Notes under the pieces: model-generated
Databases searched by the model: none
Told to the model about the DNA's origin: nothing
Seen by the model: only the letters and a program-made list of their open reading frames with translations
Program-made: the position numbers and the translations under genes
Source of the DNA: Fibrobacterota bacterium
GTDB taxonomy: Bacteria > Fibrobacterota > Fibrobacteria > UBA11236
Length of the DNA: 64,000 bases
Direction of reading: 5' to 3'
Assembly (NCBI GenBank): GCA_028287505.1
Contig: JAQBPN010000071.1
Location: 1-64,000, forward strand
Part shown: piece after piece, positions 17,630-27,332 of the stretch
Layout: each line of letters opens with the position of its first letter
Position numbering within the stretch: the stretch's first letter is position 1

Positions 17630-18946
17630 CTACTTAAAATAGGGACTGGCCTCCGGAGATACAATGACGGAGGCGCTTACATCCGATTGGCGTTTGCCGA
17701 CAAGGTTATAGCGTCTTGACCCTTTCCGGAAGATCCACGGCGGCGAATCTTGCAAGGATTTCGATTCGACGTCCGGACCCGCGCTTCTGAAGATGGACGC
17801 GCGGCTTCCGGAACTGAGCCAAAGTTCCTGGTCGCTCTGGTTGACATCGTCCGAGCTGAGGATGTCCGGGAATCCATCTCCGTTCACATCCGCCAATACG
17901 GCCTGCCAGACGCCGTGGGGCGTTTCCCAGGCCTGTTCCTGCCAGAGATCGCCGCGGCCGTGATCCTTGTCATAGTAGATGAGCATTTCCTTGGAGCCGC
18001 GATGGTCCGCGCCGGTCAGGATGTCCGGATATCCGTCCTGGTCGATGTCGCCTATCTGCAGGCTGTGGACATAGGCCGCCCGTCCCGCAGGCATGACGAT
18101 ATGCTCGATCCAGGGCCCCGATTTGGGGGTGGAGGATTCATACCAGGCCGTTTTCAGGCTCAGGGACGTATCGGAAGGGGAGACCACGATGTCCATGCGG
18201 CCGTCCTTGTTCACGTCCGCGATGGCCACGCGCGTCTGGGGGGAGCCGAAGCCGGTATTGAAATCATGCCGTATCCATGCCCCATGGACGGGGTCGGCGG
18301 GCGTTTCCAGCCATACCAGGCCGTCGGAAATGTCCAAATCCCCGTCGCCGTCCAGATCCCCGACGGCCGTGCCTTCTCCATTGCCGAAAGCCAGATTGAG
18401 ACGGACCGTTTGCCAGACACCGTCCGCACCGTTCAGAAATACGCGGAACTCCCTGGTGCCCTGGATCCTCAGGACCGCGTCCGGTTTGCCGTCTCCGTTG
18501 ATGTCCCCGACTTTGAAATCGTGCGGAAACCCATCGTCCCAGGACCCGACGGGATGCCGCACCCACGGCGCGTTGCGATCTCCGCCTTTGGCCGGATTCT
18601 CCCACCAGAATACTTGCTTGGCCGTGATTTCCGGGGCGAGGACATCGCAATCCCCGTCTCCATCCACGTCGCCGGCCTGGACTTCCATCCAGATATCGCC
18701 GCCCTCGGCGATGGAATGGGATTGCAGGGAAGGGTAGGACAGCCACTGCAAAGGCTGGGGCCCGCGCGCCACCACGATATCCTTACGACCGTCGCCGTCG
18801 ATGTCTCCCATTGCGAATGCGCCGTTGTCTCCATGATGCAAAACGGTCAGGGAAAAATCCGGCACGCCTGCGAAGACCGGCAGGAAGGTCAGAAACAGCA
18901 ACAGGATGGAGGCCTTGGCCCAGGCGGGAGGGACGTGTGCGCGCAT
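17630..18946 (-). CDS. Secreted FG-GAP/VCBS-repeat protein
   Basis: 438 residues: signal peptide (ILLLFLTFLPVFAG), then about seven integrin-alpha-like FG-GAP repeats forming a beta-propeller. Each carries a calcium-binding loop of the DxDGDGxxD type, for example GDIDGDGRKDIV, GDVDGDGDCDVL, GDINGDGKPDAV, GDLDGDGDLDIS, ADVNKDGRMDIV, GDIDQDGYPDIL and ADVNGDGFPDIL. The C-terminus RYNLVGKRQ... faintly recalls a T9SS sorting domain but is short. Such proteins usually act in adhesion or carbohydrate binding; the ligand is unknown. Confidence 0.88.
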   Translation of the reverse strand: MRAHVPPAWAKASILLLFLTFLPVFAGVPDFSLTVLHHGDNGAFAMGDIDGDGRKDIVVARGPQPLQWLSYPSLQSHSIAEGGDIWMEVQAGDVDGDGDCDVLAPEITAKQVFWWENPAKGGDRNAPWVRHPVGSWDDGFPHDFKVGDINGDGKPDAVLRIQGTREFRVFLNGADGVWQTVRLNLAFGNGEGTAVGDLDGDGDLDISDGLVWLETPADPVHGAWIRHDFNTGFGSPQTRVAIADVNKDGRMDIVVSPSDTSLSLKTAWYESSTPKSGPWIEHIVMPAGRAAYVHSLQIGDIDQDGYPDILTGADHRGSKEMLIYYDKDHGRGDLWQEQAWETPHGVWQAVLADVNGDGFPDILSSDDVNQSDQELWLSSGSRASIFRSAGPDVESKSLQDSPPWIFRKGSRRYNLVGKRQSDVSASVIVSPEASPYFK

Positions 18947-19991: not shown

Positions 19992-20244
19992 GGGCTCTCC
20001 TTGCGGACGCGTTGTGGGTGGACCGGGGGCGCGTATCGGCTTCGCGGTCCAAATTATGTTATCGGCGGGGTCGAAGCCAGAAAAACCGTTGTAAGGGGCA
20101 AGGGTAACCGGATGGTGTCGTCGGCCGTGCTGGGCGGCGGGGCCGGACGGCAGGGAGGGCCCGTAATTTCTAAAATTCCGGGGTCGGGTGTTTTTGTTTC
20201 CGGACGGTGACACTTTCCCGTCTCCACGGTGTTCAAAGGAACAA

Positions 20245-20730
20245 ATGGGATTGGAATATGGCGAAATCACCGCTCTCTATGAGCGTTACCGGGGCATGGT
20301 CCTGCGGCGCTGCCGGCAAATGCTGCGGGACGAGAAGCTCGCGGAAGACGCGGCCCAGGACGTTTTCGTCCAGTTCCTGCGCCATGGGGACCGGCTTACG
20401 GCGGAATTCCCATCGAGTCTGCTCTACCGCATCGCCACCAATCATTGCCTGAACCTGATCCGCGATGTCCGGCGCCAGGATCCGCATATCGAGGAATGGC
20501 TGCGCAGGGTGGCGGATTGGGACGACCCGGGGCCGAGGCTGGAAGCGCGCAGCATCCTCGCGCGGCTGTTCGGCCGGCACGAAGAATCAACCCGCACCAT
20601 GGCGGTGCTCCATCTGCTGGACGGCATGACCTTGGAGGAAGTGGCCCGGGAGGTGGGAATGTCGGTTTCCGGAGTCCGCAAACGCTTGCGCACCTTGCGG
20701 GAAACCCTTGTCGAATTGGAGGCGTTATGA
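20245..20730 (+). CDS. ECF-type RNA polymerase sigma factor
   Basis: 161-residue sigma-70 family protein with only regions 2 and 4. Region 2 includes LAEDAAQDVFVQFLRH (core RNA polymerase and -10 binding) and region 4 contains the helix-turn-helix MTLEEVAREVGMSVSGVRKRL for the -35 element. The start at 20245 has AAAGGA 6 nt upstream; an upstream in-frame start at 20188 lacks this. The stop overlaps the downstream anti-sigma-like gene by 4 nt (ATGA), the usual sigma/anti-sigma coupling. Its regulon is probably at least its own operon; the upstream 19992-20244 gap should hold the autoregulated promoter. Confidence 0.92.
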   Translation: MGLEYGEITALYERYRGMVLRRCRQMLRDEKLAEDAAQDVFVQFLRHGDRLTAEFPSSLLYRIATNHCLNLIRDVRRQDPHIEEWLRRVADWDDPGPRLEARSILARLFGRHEESTRTMAVLHLLDGMTLEEVAREVGMSVSGVRKRLRTLRETLVELEAL

Positions 20731-21533
20731 AAAAGTCCGACGGGCATCCGGATTTTCCGGTTTGGAAATTGGAGCGATACCTGCTTGGGGAATTGCCGGC
20801 TCCGGAGATGGAGCGGATAAGCAGGCTGAAGGAAACCGATCCCGCCTTGGCGGAATGGATCCGGGCGCTGGAAGCGGAGCATGCGGATCTGGCGGAAATG
20901 CATCCCACCGGCCGCGTGGCCGGGCGCATCTGGAACCGGTTGCGTGAAAGCGCGCCCGCGCCCCGGCGGGCTTGGAATGCTCCCGCAATCTGGGTGCCGG
21001 CATTGGGCCTGCTTCTGATGGCGGCGCTGCTGCCCTTGAATTATTCCGCGTGGATCCACTCCGGCGGCCGGCCAACGGAAGAACCCGAAGAGACCCGCCT
21101 GAAAGGTCTGCAGCCCGCTCTGTTCCTGTACAGGAAAACGGGCGAAAGCGCCATGAACCTGAACTCCGGGGACCGGGTGCGTCCCGGGGATCTCATCCAG
21201 ATGTATTACGATGCGGCCGGACGGGGCTATGGCGCCATCTTCTCCCTCGACAGGGACGGCAACGTGACCTGGCATCTTCCCGATGACGGCGGGCATTCGG
21301 CTCCCCTGATCAAGGGCGGAAAGGTTCCCCTGGGTTTCGCGTTCGAGTTGGACTCCCTGGCGGGTTTCGAACGTTTCTTCTTCGTCGCGGCGGACAGGCC
21401 CTTCGAGCTTGCGCCCGTCCTGAAGGAGATCCCCAAGGCCGAATGGCAATCTCCGCGCGGCCCGGAACGATTGCGCTTGGACAAAAGCTTTTTCCAGAAC
21501 TCGATCGTTCTGCTGAAGGAACCCAGAATATGA
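20727..21533 (+). CDS. Anti-sigma-factor-like single-pass membrane protein with DUF4384-like outer domain
   Basis: 268 residues. The N-terminal part (about 1-80) is a short helical cytoplasmic region in the style of anti-sigma domains (FPVWKLERYLLGELPAPEME) but without the HxxxCxxC zinc motif. One membrane helix spans about residues 88-110 (IWVPALGLLLMAALLPLNY). The extracytoplasmic part (about 115-268) contains NSGDRVRPGDLIQMYYDAAGRGYGAIFSLDRDGNVTW, like DUF4384-type domains found next to sigma factors and caspase-fold proteins in several phyla. Predicted role: hold the upstream sigma factor and respond to a periplasmic or envelope cue. Both junctions are ATGA overlaps. Function is inferred from context. 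Confidence 0.78.
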   Translation: MKKSDGHPDFPVWKLERYLLGELPAPEMERISRLKETDPALAEWIRALEAEHADLAEMHPTGRVAGRIWNRLRESAPAPRRAWNAPAIWVPALGLLLMAALLPLNYSAWIHSGGRPTEEPEETRLKGLQPALFLYRKTGESAMNLNSGDRVRPGDLIQMYYDAAGRGYGAIFSLDRDGNVTWHLPDDGGHSAPLIKGGKVPLGFAFELDSLAGFERFFFVAADRPFELAPVLKEIPKAEWQSPRGPERLRLDKSFFQNSIVLLKEPRI

Positions 21534-23959
21534 ACCCATCCCTCGCCATGATTGTACTCCTGGTCGCCCTGCGATCCTTCTGGCCCATGAACGGCTGGGC
21601 CGCGGAGCGCGCGGCGCCGGGAGAACAGGCTTCCGTCCGGCGGTTTTCCCTGGCCATCGGATCCAGTTTCGGAGGGCCTTCCCGGGACACCTTGCTCTAT
21701 ACCGCTTCCGATGCCGCGGCGTTCGGAAAGGTGTTGGGCGAGATGGGCGGCGTGGCCGATGCGGACACCAAGGTGATCGCCAATCCCACGCCATCGCAAT
21801 TGGACGCGGCCTTGTCGGAACTCAGGAAGAAGGTGGCCGCCGCGCAATCCCGCCCCGGCCGCACCGAGGTCATCGTCTACTATTCGGGACATGCGGACGA
21901 CAAAGGCCTTTTGTTGGGCGAGGAAAGTTTCGAATACGATCGTTTCCGCCGGGACATGGATTCCATCCCCGCCCATGTGCGCATAGCCGTGCTGGACGCC
22001 TGCGCCAGCGGCGCCATCACGCGTCTCAAAGGCGGACGGCGCCGGCCGGCATTCACCGTGGACGCCTCTTCGGACATGCGCGGGTATGCGTTCCTCACCT
22101 CCAGTTCCCCCGAAGAAGCCTCCCAGGAATCCGATCAGATCGGAAGCTCTTTCTTCACCCATTATCTTGTCAGCGGCCTGCGCGGCGCCGCCGACGTGTC
22201 CGGCGACGGCAAGGTGACTTTGGGGGAAGCCTATCAGTTCGCATTCCATGAAACCCTGGCCCGCACGGAGAGGACCAAAGGGGGACCGCAGCATCCCGCC
22301 TACGACATGAAACTTTCCGGTACCGGGGACGTGGTCATGACGGATATGCGGGAAACCTCCGCGGGCCTGGTGCTGGACAAGGAATTGGAGGGGCGGTTCT
22401 TCGTCCGCACGCCCGCCGGCCAATTGATCGCCGAACTCTACAAGCCCCAGGGCCGCATGGTGGAACTGGGCCTGCCGCCGGGACCCTATGCCATCCGGGT
22501 GGAGCGGCCCAAGGCCCAATATACGGCCTCGGTGGAATTGGCGGATGGAAAAAGGCAGACCTTGGTGGCCGCGGATTTCCAGCCCGCCTCCAAGGACCTC
22601 GCCATCCAGCGGGACAAAGGCGGCAAAGAAGAGAAGGACGGAAGCGGCGCCGCCGTACCCGGCTCCGAACCCGCCGGAGGCTTCGCCATGGAGATCAACG
22701 ACCATGTGGACGTGGACGTCTATCGGAGCATGGACAAGGACTATACCTTTTCCATCGGCTTCTTCCTGAACCGGCAACCCCGGCCGTTCCACGGCCTGCA
22801 ACTCGCGCTTTTCTTCAACCATGCCGCCACCCTGTGGGGCGGACAGATTGCCGTGATCGGAAACAGCGTGGGCGGACCCATGCAAGGATTCCAGGTGGCC
22901 GCCATCGGCAACGTGGCGCTGGATTCCACCCATGGCCTGCAACTCGCGCCCATCCTCAACATCGCCAAGGGATCCGTCACGGGCGGCCAGGGATCCGCCG
23001 TGATGAATGTGTCCCGGGGCCTCTCGGGCGGGCAGGGGGCGGCGGTGATGAACATTTCCGCGGGACCGGTAACGGGCGGCCAGGGCGCCGGAGTGCTGAA
23101 CGTGGCCGGGCCCGTGCATGGCGGCCAAGGCGCGGGCGTGGCCAACTTCGCCCTGGGACCCTTGCATGGGGGGCAGGCCGCCGCCGTGCTGAACGTGGCC
23201 GGCAGCGTGGACGGCGGACAGGCCGCGGCGGTGGCGAATATCGCCTGGGGACACATGCAGGGCGGACAGGCCGCGGCCGTGCTGAATGTCGCCAAAGGCG
23301 CGGAGGGCGGGCAGGTGTCGGCCGTTGCCAATATTTCCCTGGGCGACGTCCAGGGCGCGCAGGTGACCGCGGTGGCGAACGCCGCGCGGGATGTGAAAGG
23401 CGTCCAGGTCTCGGCCGTGCTCAATGCGGCGCGGGATGTCGATGGCTGCCAGGTGGGGTTGGTGAACATCTCCCACGACATCCGCAACGGAATCCCGTTC
23501 GGCCTCGTCAACTACAGCCATACCGGCTTGCACAGCGCCAATCTCTCGGCCGATGAACTGGGATTCCAGCATCTCACCCTGGTGTCCGGGAGCCGTAACT
23601 TCTATACCTATCTCTCCGCCGGGGACAAACTGCTCTCTTCCGGAAGAGCGCTGGCCCTGGGAGCGGGCATGGGCGTACAGATTCCCCGAGGACGTTGGTT
23701 CGGTGCCGCCGACCTGGGCGTGACCGATTTCCACTACCACTACGATTTCGACGGGAACGGGCCGGAACTCTACCGCTTGCGCCTTTCGGCCGGACGCTCG
23801 CTGATCCCGTACGTCTCCGCCTTCGGCGGATTATCGCTCAACGTATTCTGGGATCAGACGGACGGACTCTCTTTCCCCGTGGGGAATTACCAGGCCAAGA
23901 TCGCATCGGATGTCTACGCCTGGCCGGGACTTTACCTGGGACTCCGGTTCGGCAGATAA
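21530..23959 (+). CDS. Exported caspase-fold protein with LA_2272-type surface repeats
   Basis: 809 residues, predicted exported (signal peptide about 1-24). Residues about 35-270 are a caspase/metacaspase (C14-type) domain with the His in YYSGHAD (H121) and the Cys in LDACASG (C158), each followed by the expected small residues. A linker of about 120 residues with strand-rich segments follows, then sixteen 15-16 residue repeats (about 422-668), and a final 140 residues with amphipathic strands ending YLGLRFGR, a barrel-like C-terminus. The repeats and C-terminal part resemble Leptospira LA_2272-family surface repeat proteins. The caspase domain would sit outside the cytoplasm, unlike most bacterial metacaspases. 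It is the third gene of the ECF operon (ATGA overlap). The 3' end overlaps the convergent gene by 28 nt. Confidence 0.85.
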   Translation: MNPSLAMIVLLVALRSFWPMNGWAAERAAPGEQASVRRFSLAIGSSFGGPSRDTLLYTASDAAAFGKVLGEMGGVADADTKVIANPTPSQLDAALSELRKKVAAAQSRPGRTEVIVYYSGHADDKGLLLGEESFEYDRFRRDMDSIPAHVRIAVLDACASGAITRLKGGRRRPAFTVDASSDMRGYAFLTSSSPEEASQESDQIGSSFFTHYLVSGLRGAADVSGDGKVTLGEAYQFAFHETLARTERTKGGPQHPAYDMKLSGTGDVVMTDMRETSAGLVLDKELEGRFFVRTPAGQLIAELYKPQGRMVELGLPPGPYAIRVERPKAQYTASVELADGKRQTLVAADFQPASKDLAIQRDKGGKEEKDGSGAAVPGSEPAGGFAMEINDHVDVDVYRSMDKDYTFSIGFFLNRQPRPFHGLQLALFFNHAATLWGGQIAVIGNSVGGPMQGFQVAAIGNVALDSTHGLQLAPILNIAKGSVTGGQGSAVMNVSRGLSGGQGAAVMNISAGPVTGGQGAGVLNVAGPVHGGQGAGVANFALGPLHGGQAAAVLNVAGSVDGGQAAAVANIAWGHMQGGQAAAVLNVAKGAEGGQVSAVANISLGDVQGAQVTAVANAARDVKGVQVSAVLNAARDVDGCQVGLVNISHDIRNGIPFGLVNYSHTGLHSANLSADELGFQHLTLVSGSRNFYTYLSAGDKLLSSGRALALGAGMGVQIPRGRWFGAADLGVTDFHYHYDFDGNGPELYRLRLSAGRSLIPYVSAFGGLSLNVFWDQTDGLSFPVGNYQAKIASDVYAWPGLYLGLRFGR
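22793..23533 (+). repeat. Sixteen in-frame 15-16-codon repeats (GGQ-type) in the caspase-fold protein
   Basis: Consensus about GGQAAAVLNVAxGxVx. Invariant or near-invariant positions are Gly1, Gln3 and Asn9. The central units are closest, for example GGQGAAVMNISAGPVT and GGQAAAVANIAWGHMQ, and the first and last units are degenerate. The period of 15-16 with regular Gly, small hydrophobic and Asn positions suggests a solenoid or stacked strands. Confidence 0.88.
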
Positions 23960-24690
23960 TCGGCCCCCGCGGAATCGGACTGCAGGATACGCCCGGCTAT
24001 TTCCCCGAAGGCGCCGCCGAAATGGTGGCCGCCCGTCATGGGAATGGTCGTGGCCAGGTCCGCGGGGAGATCCGGGCACAGGCTTTCGCTCTCCTCTTTT
24101 CCGTAGATGCACAGGATTCGCATCCCCCTCAGTTTTTCCACCTCCGGCAGCAGGGGAAGGTTTCCTTCCCGGGGGGACCAGAGCCACTCGGTAACGTGGA
24201 ACTCCAGATCATAGGACTGGGCCGCGCCCAGCAGGGTGAGGGAGGCTATTTTCCCCCGCAAGCCGGGCGGAAGACCATTGATCATGGTGGGAAATACGTC
24301 CGCTCCCAGGGAGTAGCCGATCAACAGGAATCGATCCCGGCCCCAGGCTTTGCCGTAGTGGCGCATTATCCTGGCCAGGTCCGCCGAGACCGCTTGCGGA
24401 GATTTGCGGTGGAACAGGTATTGGAAGGAATTCAGCCCGACCGTGGGGACGCCGCTATCCGCCAACCGGGAGGCGATGCGCCGGACGAAATAGGCCCAGC
24501 CTCCGTCCCCGGTGATCAGAATCGCCATCACGTCCTTGCCGGGCCCGGCGGCCTTGACCTCTTGCAACGGAAGGTCGGAAACGTCGGCGTCGCCGGTGGA
24601 ATCGGATGGGGAAACGGGATTTTCCGCGGCCGGAACGGAGGCGGCCAGCAGCATGCCAATCCAGATCGATGCCAGCCATGCCGATTTCAT
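23932..24690 (-). CDS. AcvB/VirJ-family periplasmic serine hydrolase
   Basis: 252 residues with a signal peptide (SIWIGMLLAASVPAAE) and the VirJ/AcvB alpha/beta-hydrolase domain. Landmarks: AILITGDGGWAYF (oxyanion-type loop), VPTVGLNSFQYLF, RFLLIGYSLGADVFP (nucleophile Ser in GYSLGA), HVTEWLWSPREG, ILCIYGKEESESLCP and TGGHHFGG (catalytic His). In Agrobacterium and Rhizobium, AcvB hydrolyses aminoacyl-phosphatidylglycerol made by LpiA/MprF. Here the gene overlaps mprF by 4 nt (ATGA), strong context for the same role. VirJ is also linked to type IV secretion, but none is seen here. The 3' end overlaps the convergent caspase-fold gene by 28 nt. Confidence 0.88.
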   Translation of the reverse strand: MKSAWLASIWIGMLLAASVPAAENPVSPSDSTGDADVSDLPLQEVKAAGPGKDVMAILITGDGGWAYFVRRIASRLADSGVPTVGLNSFQYLFHRKSPQAVSADLARIMRHYGKAWGRDRFLLIGYSLGADVFPTMINGLPPGLRGKIASLTLLGAAQSYDLEFHVTEWLWSPREGNLPLLPEVEKLRGMRILCIYGKEESESLCPDLPADLATTIPMTGGHHFGGAFGEIAGRILQSDSAGADYLPNRSPR

Positions 24691-27332
24691 TTTCCCAGAA
24701 TTCCCCCGACTCCTCCGGAGATGAGGGTGGCGATATTGGTGAGAACGCGCGGGAGGGCCAACCCGCTGGGGGAGGCCAGGTAGCGGGGCTCCCATACCGG
24801 ATCGAACTGGTCCTTGAATCCGCGCAGTCCCTGGAAGTTGTAGAAATGTTCTCCGTGCCGGAAAATCACGGCGCCGACCCGGTTCCATAAGGGCGCCAGC
24901 GGGCGGCTGTCCAAACCGGCCAGGGGCGCCATACCCAGATTGAACCAGGCATAGCCGTTCTCTTTCCCCCACAACATCAGCTTCACGAAAAGGAAAACCA
25001 TGACGTCCTTGGAATCGGAAGGACGGTGCCGCATCAAATCGATGGAGAGCTCCTGATGATCCCCTCCGGTGATGATGTTGGCGAAGGCCAGGATTTTTCC
25101 CTCTTTGCGGATCACGGCTACCGGAAACCGCGCCAGATAGGGCGCATCGAAGTATCCCAGGGAAAATCCTTTTTCGCGGGTGTGCTTGAGGGCCAGCCAT
25201 TCATCCGAGATCTGCTTCAAGTCCCCCAGCAAGGAGGGGACGGCTTCCCTGGGCATCATTTCGAAAACCAGCCCTTCCTTTTCTCCGCGGTGGCAGATAT
25301 ACCGGAGATCCTTGCGCGCGTTTCCAACCAGGGAGAAAGCGGACAAGTCCACCCGGGCTTCCTCGCCCAGCTTCACCAGGGAGAGCCCGATGTCCACATA
25401 CAAGGGCAGGAAGGCGGGTTCGGCCTGGTAGAAAACCGGCAATGCGGCATAGTCGTCGCAGGAATCCTTGAATAGCCAGACCAGTTCGGGGAATTCGGAA
25501 ACCTGGCCGACCGGATCGCCCAAGGCCACCCAACTGCGGCCTTCCACGCCGTACATGATGAAGCTTTTTCCGCTGGGGCTGAACATCAGGGACTTGTCTC
25601 CCAGCAAGGCCAGGCATGCGCCGCTCCGCGTCGAAGTCCGGACGACGGCCTCGGCCTTTTCCAAATCGGCGTCATCGGGGGGCTTGGGCGAATAATGCGC
25701 CGGGGCGAGCAGGCGGGAAATGCCAGCCAAGAGCACGAAGGCGGCCGCGCCCACCGTGGCCCTCAGGAACCGGGAGACGTTTCCGTCCAGGCTGAAACGC
25801 CACCACAATTCATGGGAGTAGGCCACGTGCTTATAGGAGAAGATGCCGAGCCAGATGGCCCCCGCGAATACCAGCGCCACCGCCAGCAGCCATCTGGAGG
25901 TAAAGGAGGAGCCGAACAGGGAGGCCTGGCGGTAGAAATGCCTTTGGGCGGGCCACAAGGCCAATAGGAGGACTCCCAGCGCCAGGGCCTCCTCGTAGTC
26001 CAATCCCTTCAAGAGGGAGAAGACAATCCCCGCGGCCAGCAATGCGATGGCGGCATGGTAGGCCGCATCCACGCGGCGGCGCAACCCTTGCGAAAGCAAA
26101 AGCAGGATCGCTCCGGTGATGCTCGCAAACAAGTGAGAAGTTTCCAGAACCGGAAGGGGGATGAATCCGGAGAGCCAACGCAGGCGATTCTCCATGCCGG
26201 GCGTGGAGCCGGAAAAAATGAGCAGAACCCCGCCCAGAAAGCAGAGCACGGAATAGACCATCGGCATGAGCGGGAACAGCCATTTGTCCAGGAACCCCGC
26301 CCACTTGGCCACCCGTTCCTTTTTGGAATAAGCTTCGAATCCGGTCAGGGACAGGGCGGCAACGCATAGCGGAACCACGTAGTAGACGACCCGGAAGAGC
26401 AGGAGCGAACTGAGCAATTGCGGGGCGGGGATCCGGGAGCCCATCATCAGGATCATGGCGGACTCGAAAACGCCCAGGCCGCCGGGAACATAGCTGACGA
26501 GGCCGAGAACGCAGGCCGCTATGAAAGCGCTCAGGACCGTAGTGAAAGGGATGGCAAGACCCGGAGGGAGCAGGAAATAAAAGACCGTTCCCGCGGCCAG
26601 CCAATCCATGGACCCCAGGGCGAATTGGGCCAGCACCATGGAAGGGCGGGGGAAGCTCAACTCCCATCCCCGGATGGCCATGGGTTTCCGTATGAATACC
26701 GATGCCAGGAAATAAGCGCTGCACAGGGTCAGGAAAAGGATCCCGATGGGACGCGTGGTGCCAAAGGGCAGCCAGCCCAGGTGCGGAATCGGCAAAGGGT
26801 TCAGGGAGAAGGTAAGCCCCCCCGCGAACAGAACGCCCACCCAGAAGGTGATGGCGCAGAAAGCCAAGACCCGGGCCATGTCGCCCAGGGACAGGTCGAA
26901 GCCGGCGTAGAGGCGATAGCGGACCACCCCGCCCGTAACCGCGGCGAAACCCAGGATGTTGGTGAAGGCGTAGCTGATGAATGAAGCCAGCGCGGTTCTG
27001 CGGTAAGGTATCCGCCTGCCCGCGTAGGCGAGGCCCCCGGCGTCGAAACCGGTCAGGGTCAGAAAGCTCAGGCAAGTGAAGGCGAAGGCCAGGAGGAGAC
27101 GGGGAAGAGGGACATCCCGCAAATGGGCGATGACCTCGTGATAATTGTAATTCTTGAGTTCCTTATGCAGGGTCCACATGGCCGCGGAGAAAAGCAATAA
27201 AGCGCAAACGGGGATCAATACCCGCTTCCAACTCACCGTTCCCTGCGCCGATCCGCTCACTGCTGAACCATCCGTTTCCGGAACCAAATTAGATTTCCGG
27301 TCCCGGGTCTGTCGGTCGATTATCGTCCCCAC
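24687..27332 (-). CDS. mprF: Bifunctional aminoacyl-phosphatidylglycerol synthase/flippase
   Basis: 881 residues, the size of full-length MprF. The N-terminal 540 residues are a multi-helix flippase (for example TGFDAGGLAYAGRR, LGFAAVTGGVVRYRLY and VSYVPGGLGVFES, typical of the MprF membrane part). The C-terminal 320 residues are the DUF2156 synthase domain, with GLVFEMMPREAV, SIDLMRHRP, VMVFLFVKLMLWG and NLGMAPLAGLDSRP. It transfers Lys or Ala from aminoacyl-tRNA to phosphatidylglycerol and moves the lipid outward, reducing the surface negative charge and giving resistance to cationic peptides. Amino-acid specificity is not predictable by eye. The start is a GTG at 27332, overlapping the RIO kinase stop by 13 nt. 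Confidence 0.94.
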   Translation of the reverse strand: MGTIIDRQTRDRKSNLVPETDGSAVSGSAQGTVSWKRVLIPVCALLLFSAAMWTLHKELKNYNYHEVIAHLRDVPLPRLLLAFAFTCLSFLTLTGFDAGGLAYAGRRIPYRRTALASFISYAFTNILGFAAVTGGVVRYRLYAGFDLSLGDMARVLAFCAITFWVGVLFAGGLTFSLNPLPIPHLGWLPFGTTRPIGILFLTLCSAYFLASVFIRKPMAIRGWELSFPRPSMVLAQFALGSMDWLAAGTVFYFLLPPGLAIPFTTVLSAFIAACVLGLVSYVPGGLGVFESAMILMMGSRIPAPQLLSSLLLFRVVYYVVPLCVAALSLTGFEAYSKKERVAKWAGFLDKWLFPLMPMVYSVLCFLGGVLLIFSGSTPGMENRLRWLSGFIPLPVLETSHLFASITGAILLLLSQGLRRRVDAAYHAAIALLAAGIVFSLLKGLDYEEALALGVLLLALWPAQRHFYRQASLFGSSFTSRWLLAVALVFAGAIWLGIFSYKHVAYSHELWWRFSLDGNVSRFLRATVGAAAFVLLAGISRLLAPAHYSPKPPDDADLEKAEAVVRTSTRSGACLALLGDKSLMFSPSGKSFIMYGVEGRSWVALGDPVGQVSEFPELVWLFKDSCDDYAALPVFYQAEPAFLPLYVDIGLSLVKLGEEARVDLSAFSLVGNARKDLRYICHRGEKEGLVFEMMPREAVPSLLGDLKQISDEWLALKHTREKGFSLGYFDAPYLARFPVAVIRKEGKILAFANIITGGDHQELSIDLMRHRPSDSKDVMVFLFVKLMLWGKENGYAWFNLGMAPLAGLDSRPLAPLWNRVGAVIFRHGEHFYNFQGLRGFKDQFDPVWEPRYLASPSGLALPRVLTNIATLISGGVGGILGK

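Follow-up and report, generated by a model that had tools for sequence, protein, structure and literature searches.

What role an exported caspase might play in an operon with an extracytoplasmic function (ECF) sigma factor and a membrane anti-sigma factor is the question raised by positions 20,245 to 23,959 of contig JAQBPN010000071.1 (GenBank assembly GCA_028287505.1), within a 64,000-nucleotide stretch from a member of the Fibrobacterota that is referred to here as the window. The three genes lie on the plus strand and are joined by ATGA overlaps at 20727-20730 and 21530-21533, and the coordinates proposed in the initial annotation were exact or within a few bases. The gene set, i.e., an ECF sigma factor, a membrane anti-sigma factor with a DUF4384-like domain and an exported repeat-bearing caspase, is confirmed by our analysis (Table 1). 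We lean, with somewhat more confidence than doubt, toward a self-amplifying cassette that would link the outer membrane to the cytoplasm, in which the caspase cuts its own anti-sigma factor between K126 and G127. The argument starts from a matching R-x-K-G motif in both proteins, which suggests that the protease cuts the inhibitor to switch genes on.

In an alignment of 77 anti-sigma factors, K126 and G127 are the most conserved columns (75/76 each), with R124 kept in 60/76. In a diverse 31-row alignment with an overall identity of 20%, every row has G127 and nearly every row K126. The Lys-Gly pair lies about 20 residues past the transmembrane (TM) segment, in a disordered periplasmic linker that precedes the DUF4384-like domain. 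On the caspase side, R165-x-K167-G168-G169 occurs six residues after the catalytic Cys and is conserved among the homologues (K167, 79/82; G168, 82/82; G169, 77/82), and the R-x-K-G-G peptide was absent from three unrelated bacterial caspases. Identical motifs were found in the two partners at loci L039 and L083 (RSKG/RSKG) and L047 (RTKG/RTKG), near-identical ones at L040 and L058 (QAKG/TAKG), and an aromatic P2 residue on both sides at L072, L073, and L075; at L074 (FRG/YRG), Lys has changed to Arg in both partners.

Since mutual information computed over all columns was ambiguous, partner matching was tested directly on 58 non-redundant pairs by BLOSUM similarity, with a strict shuffle confined to clusters of caspases that share 50% identity or more. 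The similarity of true partners at P3 plus P2 was 4.55 versus 2.16 under free shuffling and 3.84 within clusters (p ~0.0005 each). The P4 position, which acts as an internal control, was not significant under the strictest shuffle (p = 0.21). The motif also follows the presence of the caspase. Eight caspase-less anti-sigma relatives from the window's family display GENSTF...GGNG at the motif position and lack Lys-Gly in 8/8 cases, and the anti-sigma factor of genome G073, whose caspase is encoded on another contig, keeps TRVKG. In a sample of 297 genomes drawn from a second phylum, the Acidobacteriota, we identified seven cassette-type anti-sigma factors (E values from 1e-52 to 1e-77), all beside a sigma factor and a caspase. 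Lys-Gly is located 9 to 25 residues past the TM segment in 7/7 of them, compared with 5/22 generic anti-sigma factors with a TM segment that have Lys-Gly anywhere in 60 residues, and the corresponding caspases carry R-x-K-[G/S]-G.

Three further observations concern motif variants. The anti-sigma factors of two divergent cassettes, L063 (G005:C172) and L118 (G002:C13), both retain KG, and the L063 caspase has DVCFGAS...NAKGF in place of DACxSG...RxKGG. In the linker of L087 (G131:C24), the aligned TRTKG is preceded by another KG (GIKGG), so the site may have been duplicated. Loci L113 to L117 and L119 to L121 (e.g., G000:C74:17862-18317) hold a conserved anti-sigma-like gene, located beside hemB in the genome of the window, with a near-invariant ENSTF after the TM segment, and neither a caspase nor a cassette-type sigma gene was found as its neighbor.

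A phylum-wide search detected homologues in 126 of 151 Fibrobacterota genomes. The genome of the window encodes five caspases, each in its own sigma/anti-sigma/caspase operon, and five cassette-type anti-sigma factors in one-to-one correspondence. Both partners lie directly upstream of the caspase gene and on the same strand at 74 of 82 loci, which bears out the three-gene synteny that the initial annotation had put forward as a check. The exceptions are four loci at contig edges, one reordered operon (L036, from an Acidobacteria metagenome-assembled genome), and genus g11 (L093, L094, and L095), where the caspase is not adjacent and the G073 pair lies on another contig. A plasmid search for relatives returned distant, unlinked caspases only. 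At L042 (G002:C23:38000-46500) a decayed cassette has lost sigma factor, anti-sigma factor, and caspase domain together, and a 361-amino-acid piece with repeats and the barrel-like end is left.

The caspase domain belongs to Peptidase C14 (PF00656; E = 1.6e-8, 34.9 bits versus a cut-off of 21.4), and metacaspases are its nearest solved relatives (5e-8). It falls short of the EACC1-associated caspase family of NCBIfam (NF047832; E = 1.8e-16, 60.3 versus 140 bits). The His-Cys dyad, whose positions had been correctly assigned, sits in YYSGH and DAC motifs and is invariant in 82/82 homologues, as are the acids D61 and D156; the protein is predicted to be proteolytically active. In the metacaspase TbMCA2, the S1 site includes Asp95 and Asp211 (clan CD review, PMC4357240), of which D61 and D156 would be the counterparts judging from the metacaspase alignment and the DxC context. 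Conservation of these acids suggests that the enzyme prefers a basic residue at P1, and prokaryotic orthocaspases are reported to cleave after basic residues (PMC6426788). A Foldseek search with the structure model of the caspase protein gave nothing significant, with metacaspases and legumain among the weak matches. The model, built from three input sequences, was too weak (mean predicted local distance difference test [pLDDT] score, 46) and was used neither to place the R-x-K-G-G loop nor as proof of a barrel.

The equal conservation and the covariation of the motif in caspase and anti-sigma factor would also fit the reverse direction, to which we assign a low probability. According to this explanation, the linker is a pseudosubstrate whose R-x-K-G docks in the caspase active site instead of the caspase loop, so that the protease is kept off, or the two proteins are held together, until a signal arrives, and the real substrate is elsewhere in the envelope. 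Retention of the caspase loop motif where the genes are not adjacent is compatible with this role. However, the disordered linker places the motif near the membrane, at the position expected for a site-1 cut, and a purely inhibitory peptide would not require this position; the basic P1 residue also fits the predicted S1 acids.

The architecture of the anti-sigma factor is consistent with the cut that we favor. Its family profile matches anti-sigma factors of known structure in the PDB, namely RslA (8e-5), ChrR, DdvA, and RsiW, and a cytoplasmic N-terminal anti-sigma domain is followed by one TM segment and a periplasmic domain that is deemed DUF4384-like only, since it scores 22 bits against the Pfam cut-off of 27 (E = 1.7e-4). 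In the AlphaFold2 (AF2) model (mean pLDDT, 66), residues 101 to 127 score below 50 and come out as disordered. Foldseek with this model gave no convincing structural match. A PDB search from single sequences yielded no match. The operon pairing suggests that the protein binds and inhibits its own sigma factor, which qualifies as an ECF factor in that it consists of regions 2 and 4 only and exceeds the TIGR02937 cut-off (Table 1). The genome also contains RseP-family (M50) genes, one of them a strong RseP-like match. In the proposed sequence of events, the anti-sigma factor would hold the sigma factor at the inner membrane, and the exported caspase would reside in the periplasm, anchored to the outer membrane by its C-terminal repeat and barrel part acting as the sensor. 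A surface signal would activate the caspase, perhaps through prior cutting or exchange of the R-x-K-G-G peptide in its own loop, and the active enzyme would cut the exposed periplasmic linker after the Lys of R-x-K-G. The cut would remove the DUF4384-like domain and thereby allow an RseP-type protease to free the sigma factor, which would fire its promoter and produce more of the cassette.

Sigma control, which the initial annotation had rightly supposed, is borne out by an ECF-type promoter at 20207-20233, inside the region 19992-20244 where it had been expected; it scores 28.1 bits, and the runner-up in the window scores 3.0. The consensus GTRACAC(TTTT)-N14-GGTGTT is common to the regions upstream of orthologous sigma genes of several families and ends about 10 bases 5' of their start codons, so the operon mRNA is probably near-leaderless. 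Among the matches listed there are 83 exact-pattern sites in 46 genomes, far exceeding the reversed-pattern control, and the second-phylum member L228 carries the same promoter. In a scan of the window's own genome no further site rose above background, the operon site being the sole convincing one. Since the promoter has no other clear target there, the caspase could be the main output of an ordinary envelope-stress switch and have its substrates among foreign proteins or other proteins of the envelope, with the shared motif due to chance and structural constraint. ECF operons often carry their own targets, which would agree with this view; we nonetheless think it improbable, since it leaves the near-invariant Lys-Gly, its absence in caspase-less relatives, its recurrence in a second phylum, and the covariation of partners unexplained.

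In Fibrobacter, additional promoter sites were found upstream of a TonB-dependent receptor gene, a DUF4249 lipoprotein gene, a flavin (FMN) reductase gene, and a DUF3450-TolQ/ExbB-ExbB-ExbD-TonB operon (loci L160, L163, L169, and L051 in genomes G026, G039, G022, and G011, with the FMN reductase in G011), so that expression of the receptor and of its ExbB/ExbD/TonB motor would also depend on this promoter. An order-level relative, G010, has sites at ExbB-ExbD genes and at a stand-alone protein with LA_2272 repeats. A wider regulon in the genome of the window was considered and rejected, as its other sites are at background and the homologous TonB cluster on contig C95 lacks the promoter; the Fibrobacter regulon is therefore not transferable to this species.

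Turning to topology, the caspase protein comprises a signal-peptide-like start, the caspase domain, a beta-rich segment, GxQ repeats, and a barrel-like end. Export and an envelope location, both anticipated, agree with this order, and signal peptide and C-terminal barrel together suggest that the caspase domain faces the periplasm and is probably tethered to the outer membrane. The sixteen repeats reported initially are recovered by eye (residues 422 to about 660), and a strict pattern finds only 12. The window protein matches the LA_2272 repeat (NF047436) weakly (E = 0.064, 13.1 versus 25 bits); the repeat is clear in relatives (E = 1.2e-6 and 1.8e-9), with 28.2 bits in L048 and 37.2 bits in the regulon protein L174, and relatives match the LA_2272 and VC2662 surface families. 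The repeats are optional and not the core of the device, since paralogues in the same genome and second-phylum members consist of the caspase and the barrel-like end without them. As for the barrel-like end, PF13505 is found at the C termini of L228 and L036 below the cut-off (26.1 and 24.4 versus 28.7 bits; E = 1e-5 and 4e-5), and the window protein gave no match.

TABLE 1 Features of the sigma/anti-sigma/caspase operon in the window
Feature	Coordinates	Strand	Evidence
ECF-type promoter, GTGACAC-N14-GGTGTT	20207..20233	+	Final base 11 nt upstream of the sigma start codon
ECF sigma factor, 161 aa	20245..20730	+	TIGR02937, E = 6e-18; Sigma70_r2, E = 9e-13
Membrane anti-sigma factor, 268 aa	20727..21533	+	Profile matches to RslA/ChrR/DdvA/RsiW; DUF4384, E = 1.7e-4; AF2 model
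TM segment, residues 86-104	20982..21038	+	Hydropathy maximum 2.0, single hydrophobic segment
Linker motif R124-L-K126-G127, proposed site-1 cut between K126 and G127	21096..21107	+	Most conserved columns
DUF4384-like periplasmic beta domain, residues 151-225	21177..21401	+	PF14326
809-aa exported caspase carrying surface repeats and a barrel-like end	21530..23959	+	PF00656, E = 1.6e-8
Signal peptide, predicted cleavage near residue 25, MNPSLAMIVLLVALRSFWPMNGWAAE	21530..21604	+	Hydrophobic start
Catalytic His121	21890..21892	+	Conserved 82/82
Catalytic Cys158	22001..22003	+	Conserved 82/82
Caspase loop motif T164-R-L-K-G-G169	22019..22036	+	Matches the anti-sigma motif and co-varies with it
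16 LA_2272/VC2662-like repeats, 15-16 aa, GxQxxxxxN	22793..23509	+	Matches in relatives
C-terminal region, probable outer-membrane barrel	23510..23956	+	PF13505 in homologues L228 and L036; inferred in the window protein

Several points weigh against cleavage of the anti-sigma factor by the caspase. The cut at K126-G127 is itself inferred from sequence, the structure models of caspase and anti-sigma factor are weak, and the outer-membrane barrel is supported in homologues only and below the Pfam cut-off. In the all-column mutual information, with a reduced alphabet, the P2-P2 pair ranks 232nd of 59,095, in the top 1% but not first. The eight caspase-less relatives form one orthologous group, so their lack of Lys-Gly counts as one evolutionary event. 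The caspases of genus g11 keep R-x-K-G-G though they do not adjoin a sigma/anti-sigma pair, which indicates that the motif also serves some separate function in the caspase, and in two incomplete g11 genomes no cassette-type anti-sigma factor was found.

A cell-death or defense executor switched on by the sigma factor, which the caspase fold brings to mind because caspases of other bacteria belong to defense systems, is very improbable, as the caspase is exported rather than cytoplasmic, up to five copies run in parallel in one genome, neither caspase nor anti-sigma factor matches a defense family, and in Fibrobacter the regulon consists of TonB transport genes and not of death genes.

Among known systems, the sigma-E pathway DegS-RseA-RseP involves, as proposed for the cassette, a periplasmic site-1 cut near the TM segment followed by a site-2 cut; DegS itself is a serine protease of the inner membrane, and its gene is not part of the sigma operon. 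FecA-FecR-FecI resembles the cassette in joining an outer-membrane protein, a membrane anti-sigma factor, and an ECF sigma factor, in RseP proteolysis as proposed for the cassette, and in TonB-system target genes, in the cassette's case in Fibrobacter; FecR is cut by Prc and self-cleaves at Gly-Thr, whereas in the cassette the outer-membrane partner would be the protease (PMC9249621). The cassette would work like FecIRA but does not belong to this family, as Pfam detects no FecR domain in the anti-sigma factor and no N-terminal signaling domain in the outer-membrane partner. In Craspase (Csx29/Csx30/CASP-sigma), a caspase-fold protease also cuts an ECF sigma inhibitor, but Csx29 is a cytoplasmic RNA-guided CHAT protease of a CRISPR locus, the inhibitor is unrelated, and there is no membrane step (PMC10028731). 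With metacaspases and orthocaspases the cassette caspase shares the fold, the dyad, and the acids expected for a basic P1; it differs in being secreted, in its surface repeat/barrel fusion, and in having an additional R-x-K-G-G loop behind the Cys. Surface proteins of the LA_2272 and VC2662 families have GxQ...N repeats of about 15 amino acids, which in the cassette are fused behind a caspase and are missing from several paralogues.

The operon type had been thought undescribed. However, sigma-70/metacaspase operons were catalogued in 2012 in Myxococcus, Anaeromyxobacter, Haliangium, Sorangium, Ralstonia, and Fibrobacter (PMC3501461), so the gene pairing was already known, Fibrobacter included, and the family occurs almost throughout the phylum. 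The section on these operons mentions no anti-sigma factor, export topology, motif, promoter, or mechanism. Our literature search, which did not extend to subscription journals and preprints, found no link of a metacaspase or orthocaspase to anti-sigma cutting and nothing that describes the promoter, the motif in the anti-sigma factor, its match in the caspase loop, or the use of an exported caspase for a site-1 cut. Overall, the earlier interpretation is partly supported: an envelope protease that senses something holds as a loose idea, but we found no evidence of self-recognition, and instead of a damage-triggered device the sequence points to signaling, with the caspase acting on the anti-sigma factor through the shared R-x-K-G.

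Elsewhere in the window, minus-strand genes at 23935-27332 encode a VirJ/AcvB-type hydrolase and an MprF-type lysyl-phosphatidylglycerol synthase; they are convergent to the caspase gene, overlap its end, and represent a second envelope-modifying pair. The minus strand at 17633-18946 encodes a probably secreted protein in which FG-GAP repeats form five stretches.

To our knowledge, the natural substrate or the function of a bacterial caspase has been established in few cases. The broader proposal, which we regard as evenly balanced, is that in at least two phyla an ECF sigma pathway has its own dedicated site-1 protease in the form of a caspase tethered to the outer membrane. This caspase would recognize an anti-sigma R-x-K-G that duplicates its own Cys-side loop, with protease and substrate co-evolving one sequence and with as many as five insulated copies in one genome. 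Genomics alone here leads to a testable prediction of one bond, K126-G127, with a promoter read-out, and orthologous and insulated paralogous pairs are offered for the study of specificity, with homologues throughout Fibrobacter, a cellulose-degrading rumen genus in which the promoter sites delineate a candidate TonB regulon. If true, the reading would mean that regulated intramembrane proteolysis has a further branch driven by a caspase, in which the caspase fold serves signaling and not death, and it would explain why sigma and metacaspase genes share the operons recorded in 2012 from myxobacteria and other bacteria.

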